Assembly: GCF_025860405.1 (NCBI RefSeq) | Contig: NZ_CP063785.1 | Coordinates: 8,805,390 to 8,869,389 of the forward strand | Source of the DNA: Tolypothrix sp. PCC 7712 | GTDB lineage: Bacteria > Cyanobacteriota > Cyanobacteriia > Cyanobacteriales > Nostocaceae | Reading direction: 5' to 3' | Length of the DNA: 64,000 nt | Shown here: positions 17,586 to 23,635 of the stretch, one piece after another | Position numbering within the stretch: position 1 is the stretch's first letter | Layout of the letters: every line of letters starts with the position of its first letter | Notes under the pieces: generated by a model | Databases searched by the model: none | What the model was told of the DNA's origin: nothing | Seen by the model: the letters and a program-made list of their open reading frames with translations, nothing else | Translations under genes and position numbers: made by a program

Positions 17586-20006
17586 ATGACAAATCCGCTC
17601 TCTTCCGTAATTCCCTCCTACAGTTGGAATCGTCCCATTGGTCTTGGTTGGGATCAGCCCTACACTGTCCGCTACGCTAGCAACATTGATGATGGCCCTT
17701 GGCATGGTATGCCTTTAGGTGGCTTTGGTGCTGGTTGTATTGGTCGTTCTTCTCGGGGAGACTTTAATTTATGGCATATTGACGGGGGAGAGCATACATT
17801 TCAGAATATCCCCGCCTGTCAATTCAGTGTGTTTGAGTCTCACGGCTCATCTTCCCAAGCTTATGCTTTATGCACCCAAGCACCAGAGGATAAGAGTTTA
17901 GCTGCTTGGCGCTGGTATCCAGAAAGCAGGGGAGCAGGGGAGAAGTTTAACACGGGGAATTATCATGCGCTCTATCCCCGTAGTTGGTTTGTTTACGAAA
18001 ATGTCTTTAAAGCACAGCTAAGTTGTGAGCAGTTTTCCCCCATTTGGGCAAATAACTACAAAGAAACTAGTTATCCGGTGGCGATATTCCTTTGGAAAGC
18101 CCATAATCCCACGAATGCACCTATTACTCTCAGCATTATGCTCACCTGGCAAAATATGGTGGGTTGGTTTACCAATGCTTTGAAGTCGCCGGAAGTGAAG
18201 ATTCGGGATGATGGTAGCCCAGTTTATGAATATCAGCCGCGTTTGGGCGAGAGTCAAGGTAATTACAATCAATTAGTGGAAAATGAGCAGCACTTTGGTT
18301 GCTTTTTATCCCGGGTTGCTGGTAATGCACCTGTGCAAGAAGGTGATGGTAGCTGGTGTATTGCAACTGTGAAGCATCCCCAGGTGGAAATGTTTGATCA
18401 CACGCGCTGGAATCCAAGCGGTACAGGTGATGAGTTGTGGCAAAGCTTTGCAATAGATGGTTCTTTGCCCAATCATGTTGATGATACGCCAGCAGCAGAT
18501 AATACACAAATCGGGGCTGCGATCGCACTGCGTTTTACGCTGCAACCAGGACAATCTCTAGAACTCCCCTTTGTTTTAACTTGGGATTTCCCAGTAACAG
18601 AATTTGCTGCAGGAATTAACTATTACCGCAGATATACAGATTTTTTTGGCAGAGATGGTCAAAATGCTTGGGCGATCGCATCTACTGCCTTAACAGAATA
18701 TCAGAATTGGCGATCGCAGATTCAAAGTTGGCAACAACCCATCCTTGACCGGGAAGATTTACCAGCTTGGTTGAAAATGGCTCTATTTAATGAGCTTTAT
18801 GACCTTACTAGTGGTGGTACTCTCTGGAGTACAGCTTCAGAAAACGATCCTATCGGTCAGTTTGCGGTGCTGGAGTGCTTAGATTATCGCTGGTATGAAA
18901 GTTTAGATGTGCGCTTGTATGGTTCTTTCGCCCTATTAATATTATTCCCCGAACTGGAAAAGTCAGTAATGCGGGCTTTTGCCAGGGCGATTCCCCACAG
19001 TGACGACCACCAACGTATAATTGGCTATTACTATACAATTGGCGCAGACACGACAACTGCAACCCGCAAAATCGCAGGCGCAACACCCCACGATTTAGGC
19101 GCACCTAATGAGCACGTTTGGGAGAAAACTAACTACACCTGTTACCAAGACTGCAATTTATGGAAAGATTTAGGCAGTGATTTTGTGTTGCAAGTATACC
19201 GAGATTTTCTACTCACAGGTGCTGATGATGTGCAGTTCCTTGCAGATTGTTGGGATGCAATTGTGCAAACTCTCGACTATCTGAAAACTTTTGATTTAGA
19301 TGGTGATGGCATTCCCGAGAACTCCAGTGCGCCAGATCAGACTTTTGATGATTGGCGACTGCAAGGTGTGAGTGCATATTGCGGGGGTTTATGGTTAGCG
19401 GCGTTAGAAGCTGCGATCGCCATTAGTGATATCTTATTAACGAACCGCAGAGGCGCAGAGAACACAGAGGAGTTAGCAGCGCAAAAATCTATCTATGAAA
19501 CTTGGTTAAACCAATCTCGTCCCATCTACGAAGAAAAACTTTGGAATGGGCAATATTACCGCCTGGATAGCGAGAGTGGTTCGGAAGTAGTGATGGCGGA
19601 TCAACTATGCGGACAATTCTACGCCCGATTGTTGAGATTACCGGATATTGTAGCGAGCGATCGCGCCTTATCTGCACTCAAAACTGTATATGATGCTTGC
19701 TTCCTCAAATTCCAAAATGGTCAATTCGGTGCTGCAAACGGTGTGCTCATTGATGGTTCCCCAGAAAATCCCAAAGCCACCCATCCTCTAGAAGTCTGGA
19801 CAGGTATCAACTTTGGGCTAGCAGCTTTCCTCGTACAGATGGGAATGAAAGATGAAGCATTGCGCTTAACACAAGCCGTAGTCCAGCAAATTTACGACAA
19901 CGGACTACAATTCCGCACACCCGAAGCCATCACCGCATCTGGTACCTTCCGCGCCAGCACCTACCTACGCGCAATGGCTATCTGGGCAATTTACTTAGTT
20001 TATTAG
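17586..20006 (+). CDS. GH116 beta-glucosidase/glucosylceramidase-like (GBA2 family)
   Basis: 806 residues with both GH116 domains: an N-terminal beta-rich domain (LGGFGAGCIGRSSRGDFNLW, residues ~40-60) and a C-terminal (alpha/alpha)6 barrel from about 390. Landmarks of the GBA2 family are the region around Glu430 in VLECLDYRW, likely nucleophile, DVRLYGSFALLILFP, PHDLGAP, and Asp584 in PDQTFDDW, likely acid/base; their spacing (154) is close to that of the characterised bacterial enzyme. AYCGGLWLAALEAA follows. It should hydrolyse beta-glucosides or glucosylated lipids; substrate here is unknown. No signal peptide is seen. Residues ~619-632 (NRRGAENTEE) come from a dispersed repeat inserted in frame. 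Confidence 0.88.
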   Translation: MTNPLSSVIPSYSWNRPIGLGWDQPYTVRYASNIDDGPWHGMPLGGFGAGCIGRSSRGDFNLWHIDGGEHTFQNIPACQFSVFESHGSSSQAYALCTQAPEDKSLAAWRWYPESRGAGEKFNTGNYHALYPRSWFVYENVFKAQLSCEQFSPIWANNYKETSYPVAIFLWKAHNPTNAPITLSIMLTWQNMVGWFTNALKSPEVKIRDDGSPVYEYQPRLGESQGNYNQLVENEQHFGCFLSRVAGNAPVQEGDGSWCIATVKHPQVEMFDHTRWNPSGTGDELWQSFAIDGSLPNHVDDTPAADNTQIGAAIALRFTLQPGQSLELPFVLTWDFPVTEFAAGINYYRRYTDFFGRDGQNAWAIASTALTEYQNWRSQIQSWQQPILDREDLPAWLKMALFNELYDLTSGGTLWSTASENDPIGQFAVLECLDYRWYESLDVRLYGSFALLILFPELEKSVMRAFARAIPHSDDHQRIIGYYYTIGADTTTATRKIAGATPHDLGAPNEHVWEKTNYTCYQDCNLWKDLGSDFVLQVYRDFLLTGADDVQFLADCWDAIVQTLDYLKTFDLDGDGIPENSSAPDQTFDDWRLQGVSAYCGGLWLAALEAAIAISDILLTNRRGAENTEELAAQKSIYETWLNQSRPIYEEKLWNGQYYRLDSESGSEVVMADQLCGQFYARLLRLPDIVASDRALSALKTVYDACFLKFQNGQFGAANGVLIDGSPENPKATHPLEVWTGINFGLAAFLVQMGMKDEALRLTQAVVQQIYDNGLQFRTPEAITASGTFRASTYLRAMAIWAIYLVY

Positions 20007-20262: not shown

Positions 20263-21951
20263 TTTTGATTAACTAATTTCAATTTTGCAATCAAATATAC
20301 ATACAGAAAAATATCTACGTTTTATTATTTACGTTTTCAAACCTACTTCGTTTGTAGCTGATTTCGTAAGTATTTTTATCTGTTGTTTTATTTTCCGGGT
20401 GTTTCTTAAACCAATAGAAAAGAGTAAGTAATAGTAACAGGGTTGTAACTTCTTGAAGACTCAGGAGTGTTGCTTTCAATGGATTCTAGATTTTCAGCTT
20501 AAATTATTGAGGATATTAATCTCTAAAAATTTATGTTCATGGTTAACATTTTTTACCGGAAAATAAATTTATTATTAATTATTTTTTGTAGCAAAAGCTA
20601 CTATGAATTTAACTGCCTGTTGTAAAAAATCTCTACAGATAAGGTAAAATAAATTTTTTACATTCATTCTACGTATTCTTATATACAGTAATAAGGCAAT
20701 TAAATCAATGAATATTGATTAAAGAGTAGTTAAAATTTTGATAAAGTAGGGAGTATATATTGGCGATCGCAGCCAAAACCTCAGAAGCAAACATTAGCCA
20801 TTGATTTAGACTTGACTCAAAATCTCACAGTCATAAATCATTTGTAAATCTTTCCTATTCCCCGTTCTAAACCTCCAGAAGTAATTTCACAACTCCCAGA
20901 GGAATTACTATACATCAGTATTTGTAAGTACTTTTTGAAACTTTCTCTTAGGATAAGCCACTGAAAAATGATAGCTCTGCAATTGGTGATTGATAACACA
21001 AATAATTGCGTTTTCCAGAGGCTGTTGGAATGAAGCAATCCAAACAGTGAAAAATTTCACGTCTTTTTTTGTACTGAAGGTACTCGTCTATTTAAAGTTA
21101 ACAAGCTTACCCAAAACCCAAAATTTAGCCATGAACTTCTATTTGTCGTTTAGAGTTCAGGGAGATGGAGAATTTCAAACTAACCAGCAGTCTCCCACTC
21201 CAAAAGCGTCTATTCTCAGTTTTTTGGGGGTAATTGTCAATTAATTAGAAACTGAGCAAGAGAGATTGGAGACTACTTAATTCTCTATCTTCTCTGATTT
21301 TCCCAAGCTTGCTGCATATATCTGTATCTTGCTTTGAAACAGAAGTATCATTTTGAGAAACCACACTGATGAAAAACTGATAGTAATTATAGGTTTTTAT
21401 CGCTACTAGTAATAATTACATTTTCTCATGTAACCATACTTAACTACATCAGTTAGATATTAATTCTACAGTCAGGCTATTTAGAACTATTACTATCATC
21501 TGCTGTAGATAATATACCTATATACTGCTTATTTTACTAGCATTTTATAGGCTAATTCTGATACATTATAGTTGACTTAGATATGAATCGGTGGTGAATT
21601 TGCCAGAGTCATTTGACACTGGTTACCAAAGTTTATATATCATATCATATTCTAAAATTTTTTGCATATTATCTGCAGCAAAGTATGGTTTATCTTGATG
21701 CAATATTATCAACAAACATATTCTAATTGCTCAGGTATGAAAACGCTAAAATCTTTGTATAGCAAGAAATAGCAAAAAAATAAACAAAGATAAAAGTCAG
21801 ATAAATTCTAAAAAACTTTTTCAATAATTATGGCTTTTTTAGATTTTTTTAAAATGTCTATATTCCTTGTTACTTGGCTGTTAAACCACATATCTAGTGC
21901 TAAAATTTCTTAGTAATGCGAGGTAAATAAAATTTCGATATGTATCTTATA
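20263..21951. other. AT-rich gene-free stretch upstream of the hetP-like locus
   Basis: About 1.7 kb with no convincing open frame; the longest (about 20990-21244) is low quality. A single HIP1 octamer occurs near 20.76 kb, against dense HIP1 elsewhere. It may be regulatory or decayed sequence. Confidence 0.5.
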
Positions 21952-22515: not shown

Positions 22516-22755
22516 ATGGAAAGAATCATCAAGTTAAATGCAGTGGAAACCGCAAGTCAAAGGAGTAGTTATAGGATGAAGGTTGATTATTTGCATCCTT
22601 ACTACGATCCAACTCCTGAGAAAATATCGATTTATAACAGTGCGCTCAGTATAACTAGAGCGACTGTACCAGAAACATCTACCTGCGATCGCTACATAAA
22701 ATGCCAAGAATGGAGCCAGCAGTCTCAATTCAGCGGCTTTGGTCTTCAGGAATAG
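22516..22755 (+). CDS. Possible small protein in the hetP leader (79 residues)
   Basis: ATG preceded by AGGT at 8-bp spacing. The sequence (VDYLHPYYDPTPEKIS in the middle) is soluble and not low-complexity, but I recognise no domain. The frame is open for 26 more codons upstream from a TTG. It lies 210 bp before the hetP-like gene, on the same strand and within its presumed leader. Confidence 0.35.
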   Translation: MERIIKLNAVETASQRSSYRMKVDYLHPYYDPTPEKISIYNSALSITRATVPETSTCDRYIKCQEWSQQSQFSGFGLQE

Positions 22756-22965: not shown

Positions 22966-23304
22966 ATGAACCACGATATTTCTGACATTAGTAGCAAGTT
23001 AAAGAACTCTATTCCTCCTGAACAGTTTGATCAAGTCGTGGAAGCGATTCTTTCTGGAAAATATTCCTGGGCCTGTGTATTAATGTTACGTTTTGCTGGT
23101 TACAATCCTTTACATTACATTCCTTATCGGACTTACAATCGATTGCTCAAAGAAAACTCCCTGATGAATCGGTCTAACAACCAGCAAAATCCCACTCTGA
23201 ATATAGCCAAACCATCCTCTGAGAAAAGGTCTGATACAAATGTCTCACCAACTAACTTAAGCAAGATTAAGGAATTTCCTTATCTTGAGGTCGTTGGAAA
23301 GTAA
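22966..23304 (+). CDS. hetP: HetP-family heterocyst differentiation protein, C-terminally truncated
   Basis: 112 residues. The core [20 protein letters not shown] and [14 protein letters not shown] (residues 31-64) is the HetP-family signature, with Cys37 corresponding to the cysteine reported as important in HetP (position 36 there). The C-terminal piece [15 protein letters not shown] also matches. HetP acts downstream of HetR in commitment to heterocyst formation. Anabaena HetP is about 159 residues, so this protein lacks roughly the last 45; the codons after the stop still resemble the missing part. It could be the hetP ortholog or a paralog; the HetR-type site upstream favours hetP. hetC is not adjacent, unlike in Anabaena. 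Confidence 0.85.
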
Positions 23305-23361
23305 AAAGTAGAAATTTGTGGTGCTAGTTAGGATATGTGGCTGACAGAGTAAGTTCGATAA
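23305..23361 (+). pseudogene. Decayed C-terminal extension of the hetP-like gene
   Basis: In the same frame after the TAA stop the codons read KVEICGAS, stop, DMWLTE, stop, VR, stop. As I remember the HetP C-terminus, it has a matching E-I-x-G segment followed by D-x-W-L-T-E-x-V. The stops fall where Gln, Leu, Gln and Glu codons would be, each explicable by one base change. Confidence 0.5.
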
Positions 23362-23610
23362 CATAAATCAAATACTAATTCAGGCCAGAAAGTACTCAAG
23401 ATACTTCTGGAAAATTCTGTTGATTAATTAATGTATCCATCAATTAACTACAGATTTCCAGTCATTGAGTAACTATCTAATTGCCATGCAGATTAAAGAT
23501 TTATAGCATGACTGCTTTGTAATGGTATTTGTTGCTTAAATAGACTGCTTGTAAAAATCCAGCCAACAAATTCGCTTTGTGATTGCGACCTCCAAAACTC
23601 TTACCTTATA

Positions 23611-23635
23611 TAGTCCTCCTCCTTTAGGGGGACTA
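23611..23635 (+). terminator. Possible terminator hairpin downstream of hetP-like gene
   Basis: TAGTCCTCC and GGGGGACTA pair over nine positions with one G-U, followed by CCCTTTATTT. It is about 300 bp after the stop codon. Confidence 0.35.

Follow-up and report, generated by a model that had tools for sequence, protein, structure and literature searches.

HetP as a candidate substrate of the HetC exporter: a truncated hetP gene beside a hetC remnant in Tolypothrix sp. PCC 7712

The window analysed here, a 64,000-nucleotide stretch of Tolypothrix sp. PCC 7712 (contig NZ_CP063785.1, positions 8,805,390 to 8,869,389), carries a hetP gene whose frame stops at the first codon past a conserved block. 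Comparison of hetP loci within the family indicated that a double-glycine (GG) site of HetP depends on HetC, a conclusion that is well supported. HetC probably processes HetP at this GG site, and the window would then hold what remained after the loss of HetC.

Truncated hetP gene in the window

The hetP reading frame, recognised by its translation and its family match, occupies 22966..23304 on the forward strand (112 codons plus the stop), and is the sole HetP-family gene seen in this genome by protein search and family-model search. Residues 3-64, counted from the ATG (22972..23157, forward strand), match the NCBIfam family NF037966 HetP_family (E 2.9e-35, 119.7 bits, family cut-off 45), as in HetP/Alr2818 of Anabaena PCC 7120; no Pfam family matched the protein. 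Unlike HetP/Alr2818, it ends at residue 112 instead of near residue 156, and the adjoining hetC is a remnant. Residues 98-112 (23257..23301, forward strand) form a conserved block that is retained up to the truncation point, with L98, K100, K102, Y106, V109 and K112 invariant among 33 aligned HetP sequences. A structure model of full-length HetP (33 sequences, alignment A1) was set aside as too poor to use (mean pLDDT 53, pTM 0.20); in this poor model one helix spans 104-117 and another 122-137, and the two are interrupted at GG.

Codon 113 is the stop TAA (23302..23304, forward strand), as placed by a codon table across relatives. The DNA from this stop onward is an untranslated relic of the HetP tail (23302..23361, forward strand), in which the post-stop frame reads K V E I C G A S * D M W L T E * V R *, the in-frame stops being 23302 TAA, 23329 TAG, 23350 TAA and 23359 TAA. 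By the same codon table, the GG pair (residues 119-120; 23320..23325, forward strand) is now represented by Gly-Ala codons past the stop, and a translated GG site is absent from the window's HetP. Since a terminator-like hairpin with a T-rich tail (23611..23635, forward strand), present in all five aligned genomes, lies 3' of the relic, the relic is in the likely 3' untranslated region of hetP. This 3' region also includes an imperfect inverted repeat, CCAGAA...TTCTGG, at about 23384-23411, with arms identical by eye in five aligned genomes. A conserved RNA element in the post-stop DNA was considered and rejected, its divergence (about 0.025-0.09 per 40 bases) being similar to that of other stretches before the terminator.

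Age of the tail loss and state of heterocyst control

For comparison, 80 of the 96 named relatives were used. In most of the 80 the frame is open past codon 113 and ends between about codon 123 and codon 157, the usual continuation being K Q K x E I R G G ... W L x x Q. A stop at codon 113 closes the frame in L003, L004 and L005 (identity to the window 93-98%) as well as in L019, L023, L027, L031 and L032. In the near relative G017 the frame is open to codon 131, and 46 of the 57 aligned post-stop bases are identical to those of the window (hand count, one codon gap). The preliminary description had read the post-stop codons as a HetP C-terminus interrupted by stops, and the alignment with the HetP family bears this out, showing a nonsense change behind what appears to be a functional core.

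Codon 113 is CAA, one base from a stop, in G012, G016, G017 and G095, while the five truncated genomes have TAA (three genomes) or TAG (G015 and G018). The stop at codon 122 stands opposite AAG, CAG, CAA and ATG in the same four relatives. G012 and G095 already have a stop at codon 129, and G012, G016 and G017 have one at codon 132; these two stops are therefore not damage of this strain and look like older C-termini. The HetP tail seems, from these codons, to have been shortened stepwise.

Within the window's genus, HetP ends directly after residue 112 in five of eight genomes and runs on for 15 or 18 residues in the remaining three; in a separate group, g31, codon 113 is a stop in all five genomes. 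A tail loss that is recent and confined to this strain, as first described, is ruled out by these shared stops, codon 113 being a stop in four other genomes of the genus. The best explanation is that a lineage which had lost hetC, ancestral to five or more species, acquired the nonsense change at codon 113.

The core and the relic differ in selection: across the five truncated genomes the core has a dN/dS of 0.13, and residues 1-64 are free of nonsynonymous differences, against 0.73 in the 20 post-stop codons, where changes are few (6 synonymous and 16 nonsynonymous, summed over 10 pairs). The core is thus constrained and the tail relic much less so, and we infer that the truncated HetP protein works. 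Little has changed in the post-stop frame, and it can still be recognised, as it would after a sequencing error or if the stop were read through and the tail still made. Such an account has next to no probability: the stops at codons 113, 122 and 129 are common to five genomes, and the separately assembled L003, L004, L005 and G018 carry them, which makes sequencing error unlikely; there are four stops in 20 codons, and the post-stop dN/dS is far above that of the core.

The HetR frame is open (307 aa) in all eight genomes of the genus, and the window's own genome gave four matches to nifH above the family cut-off. With HetR and nifH intact and the HetP core conserved, heterocyst control is not visibly decayed. 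Its decay in this strain, as suggested earlier, is very improbable on the strength of these same observations, although hetC, reported in PMC10986499 to be essential if Nostoc PCC 7120 is to make functional heterocysts, with both its peptidase and its ATPase activity needed, is a remnant in the window, and only one HetP-family gene was found in the genome. hetC can be missing elsewhere: for Nodularia spumigena CCY9414, PMC3610870 gives hetP and the heterocyst regulators as present and hetC as absent. In G102 nothing recognisable as hetC lies upstream of hetP, and HetP ends 9 residues past K112, so the window's case is not isolated.

Decay of hetC at the hetP locus

A remnant of hetC, 37 codons of the HetC N-terminus (21131..21241, forward strand), was detected by tblastn with the HetC protein P0001 (E 3.8e-6). 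Upstream lies a glycosyl-hydrolase family 116 gene (17586..20006, forward strand; Pfam PF04685 and PF12215), which stands upstream of hetP in 130 of the 160 fetched loci. In relatives the glycoside hydrolase 116 gene is followed by hetC and then by hetP, often with a small ORF between these two, and hetP is likewise located behind hetC in Anabaena according to PMC4133259. The upstream neighbour and the hetC remnant between the two genes mark the window's gene as orthologous to the hetC-linked hetP.

The hetC genes of relatives are open over about 1010-1100 codons. P0001 (from G072) contains a C39 peptidase domain (PF03412), an ABC membrane domain (PF00664) and an ABC ATPase domain (PF00005), with a weak cNMP match; it is called HetC here by these domains and by its place beside hetP. 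The order C39, ABC-membrane, ABC and cNMP is the one reported for HetC (PMC10986499), and with C39, membrane and ABC domains the HetC proteins of relatives are like peptidase-containing exporters (PCATs). No intact HetC was found in the window's own genome, where the best match reached 798 bits (50% identity over residues 301-1056); this match, at the level of the paralogues found across the genus, is by its score a paralogue. Intact HetC copies linked to hetP are far above this level, for example 1200-2366 bits in many genomes.

Further hetC remnants with in-frame internal deletions, 258-355 codons in length, were observed in L119 and L120 (G016 and G017), L210 (G011) and L141 (G039). Those of G016 and G017 are open over 345 compared codons with a dN/dS of 0.49, and perhaps represent a shortened HetC that is still in use. 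Elsewhere in the window's own genome (G000:C1:5919880-5920614, reverse strand) there is a 255-codon fragment, 57% identical to HetC residues 808-1053 with one in-frame stop, which is possibly a relic of the HetC paralogue gene hetC2.

Between the hetC remnant and hetP the window includes a small ORF of 79 codons (22516-22755, forward strand) starting MERIIKLNAVET; it matched no family in Pfam or NCBIfam, and a related ORF is located upstream of hetP in 38 of the 80 named loci. Other neighbours of hetP were a PPIC-type isomerase gene (e.g. L008:4915-5652), near hetP in 30 of the 80 named loci, and a further HetC-like exporter a few kilobases downstream of hetP in G157, G161, G162, G163 and others. 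In Nostoc carneum NIES-2107 (L003, AP018181.1; G013:C2) the hetP locus, with its stop at codon 113, lies on a replicon of 553,734 bases titled plasmid1, not on the chromosome, and G013 gave no intact hetC.

Loss of the HetP tail in relation to loss of hetC

After a search of 217 genomes of the family, loci were fetched for 160, of which 150 came from the HetP matches listed and 10 from the HetC list for intact hetC; five of the other 57 genomes had no match at E 1e-10. The state of hetC was set by hand as intact in G026, G092 and G188, where a contig end cuts the gene, in G198, whose hetC sits on a separate contig, and in G084, where its frame is broken into two parts; it was set as lost in G028, which has an internal deletion, and in G093 and G094. 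In G052, G103 and G112, with 847-2441 bases of upstream DNA, hetC was taken as lost, matching the genome-wide HetC list. Losses were placed on a locus tree of the HetP core and the neighbouring glycoside hydrolase (130 loci), which is not a species tree.

Among the 62 loci with intact hetC, 56 encode tails of at least 36 residues past K112 and 6 encode shorter ones; for the 98 loci where hetC is not intact the numbers are 33 and 65, and 23 of these 33 belong to a single genus, g37. When no regain is assumed, the tree carries about 11 losses of the tail and about 11 losses of hetC. Eight of the 11 tail losses fall in lineages that lack intact hetC: five are strictly nested within an earlier loss of hetC, and three share their branch with the hetC loss. 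The three with hetC present are G194 and G036, each with intact hetC and a tail of 26-27 residues, and the g36/g56 group, in which four genomes have intact hetC and the tail is short. The earlier suggestion that the tail is dispensable can thus be kept conditionally, for lineages without intact hetC.

The rate of tail loss was estimated as 4.47 without hetC versus 0.35 with hetC, about 13 times faster (LRT 14.24, p 1.6e-4), and a difference as large was obtained in none of 200 parametric bootstrap simulations. The difference was stable when the tail was defined by 25 aa (p 6.8e-6), when G084 and G028 were recoded, and when the 10 genomes from the HetC list were removed (p 4.1e-4). A test with independent pairs gave the same direction without significance (about 3 pairs the same, 0 opposite and 6 undecided, median p 0.25).

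If the tail were only weakly constrained, it could have been lost by chance irrespective of HetC, as might be guessed from the scatter of tail ends, 0 to 48 residues past K112, and from the genomes that lost theirs with hetC present. This explanation is disfavoured, and we regard it as decidedly unlikely in view of the rate difference, reached by no simulation, and of the selection on residues 113-120, for which dN/dS is 0-0.49 in five groups with hetC versus 0.60 and 0.77 in two groups without it.

A short tail of a different kind, mostly ending REKKSA or similar, was observed in the g4/g17/g54 clade (L124, L127, L135, L137, L138 and others), 33 genomes from ten related genera with no hetC trace at hetP.

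Dependence of the GG site on HetC

Association with hetC loss was determined by a tree-based test for 35 positions from residue 64 on, each conserved in at least 70% of the long-tailed HetP proteins of genomes with hetC, with absent residues treated as missing. The association was strongest at G119 (p 2.3e-6), and its p value stayed at or below 3e-4 when the ADA clade, g37, g1+g34 or g36+g56 was dropped singly. Other associated positions were L104 (5.5e-5), G120 (0.0011), S96 (0.0015) and I117 (0.011); W125, L126, Q129, E116 and K114 showed no association in the same test. Together with the dN/dS of residues 113-120, the G119 signal indicates that the loss of hetC first frees the stretch up to GG, not the whole tail. 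The segment past GG evolves similarly in both classes (dN/dS 0.14-0.33 in groups with hetC, 0.19 and 0.35 in those without). Because this segment is constrained and 33 of the 98 loci without intact hetC retain a long tail, the tail must have some role also without HetC. L104 and S96, on the core side, are associated as well, and the signal is therefore wider than GG alone.

The pattern YLE-x10-GG was found in 53 of 62 loci with hetC and in 24 of 98 without it; GG itself is present in 52 of the 56 loci that combine hetC with a long tail, and RGR replaces RGG in four genomes with hetC and full tails. A chance estimate for the GG spacing was set aside because it depended on an assumed frequency of glycine. 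The W-L motif past GG was tried as a second hetC-dependent element and rejected: raw counts of 46/56 versus 9/33 gave a tree-based p of 0.34 with the truncated rows as missing, and 0.037 when truncation was counted as loss.

The YLE-x10-GG pattern resembles a C39 cleavage site. In the leaders of PCAT substrates, hydrophobic residues are usual at -4, -7, -12 and -15. With G120 taken as -1, HetP has I117, V109 and Y106 at -4, -12 and -15, and K114 at -7. The HetP proteins of genomes with hetC are like double-glycine substrates in having a GG pair at a fixed distance past a conserved block, and unlike PCAT substrates in that the part before GG is no short leader but the whole regulatory protein of about 120 residues, with Lys at -7.

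A second pair, hetC2-hetP2

Several genomes encode the HetC paralogue named hetC2, 50-56% identical to HetC (e.g. L303 and L304, from G072 and G012). A HetP paralogue gene, hetP2, follows hetC2 in 13 of 16 hetC2 loci, and none stands beside it in three genomes. In 9 of the 13 linked hetP2 genes GG is located exactly ten residues past Y-(L/V)-E, although the residues between differ from those of HetP; the others have GA (one), GI or GM (two) or are cut short (one). A further 30 loci of the hetP2 type were fetched, 25 of them from genomes without intact hetC2 among the matches listed. The status of hetC2 was read from the HetC matches listed, three candidates per genome and at least about 802 bits, where absence from the list is no proof of loss, and on this basis GG occurs in 0 of the 25, GA in one, and several end at or before the block. 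The contrast of 9/13 with 0/25 gives a raw p of 4.4e-6, which ignores kinship (G059, G060 and G065 are from one genus, as are G026 and G028). By these residues the hetC2-hetP2 pair repeats the GG pattern of hetC-hetP.

Proposed processing of HetP by HetC

From the sequence patterns we infer binding, cleavage and export of HetP by HetC. We propose that the block of residues 98-112 is the portion of the signal that HetC recognises. Its C39 peptidase domain would recognise the block around DLxYLE (residues 103-108) and cut HetP past the two glycines, 119-120, ten residues beyond the block. After this cut a HetP core of about 120 residues would stay in the cell, and the C-terminal peptide of about 36 residues would be passed to the HetC exporter. 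In a lineage that has lost hetC, constraint would be relaxed first at the cleavage site, and the tail may subsequently shorten as far as the edge of the conserved block, the very end of the window's protein. In the window, hetC would have decayed and the site become useless, a stop would have arisen at the first codon past the block, and the core would have been left under strong selection.

We lean slightly toward a wider reading, in which HetP is the long-sought substrate of HetC and its 'leader' is the developmental regulator itself. The cut at G119-G120 would free the core for commitment and release the C-terminal peptide as a possible signal to neighbours; lineages that lost HetC would have substituted a stop codon close by for the cut, as in the window, and hetC2-hetP2 would be a second system of this type.

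Published observations on HetC and HetP bear on this proposal in both directions. PCATs are reported to cut past GG, GS or GA, and in PMC10986499 the substrate of HetC is given as unknown and none of the genes near hetC was found to have a typical leader. When HetC lacks its peptidase domain, differentiation is restored by hetP-sf-gfp, with 3-4 fold more hetP expression (PMC4133259), which fits HetP acting after HetC. An alternative without cleavage is docking of the HetP tail on HetC, or a contribution of the tail to placing HetP at the heterocyst poles, with the glycines shaping the docking site. In favour of it, HetC-GFP and HetP-GFP are both concentrated near the poles (PMC4133259), and L104 and S96 also lose constraint along with hetC. 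We nevertheless consider docking unlikely: the GG spacing is conserved in two gene pairs despite diverged flanks, the expected look of a C39 cleavage site, and C-terminal GFP fusions of HetP, described in PMC4133259 as cytoplasmic, are localised alike with and without the HetC peptidase domain. This last observation lends no support to export of the tail under the processing model either.

Shorter proteins of the HetP family occur in several genomes with hetC, and these are similar in kind to the HetP homologues Asl1930, Alr2902 and Alr3234 named for Nostoc PCC 7120 (PMC9045159). Unlike these three, the window's gene is by position the hetC-linked orthologue, and its shortness is secondary. 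No report of the YLE-x10-GG motif was found among the open-licence papers searched; one of them asks whether HetC could export HetP-derived peptides.

The comparison names one candidate substrate of HetC, predicts one site at which it is cut and offers a second gene pair as a replicate. It also suggests why several lineages manage without HetC.
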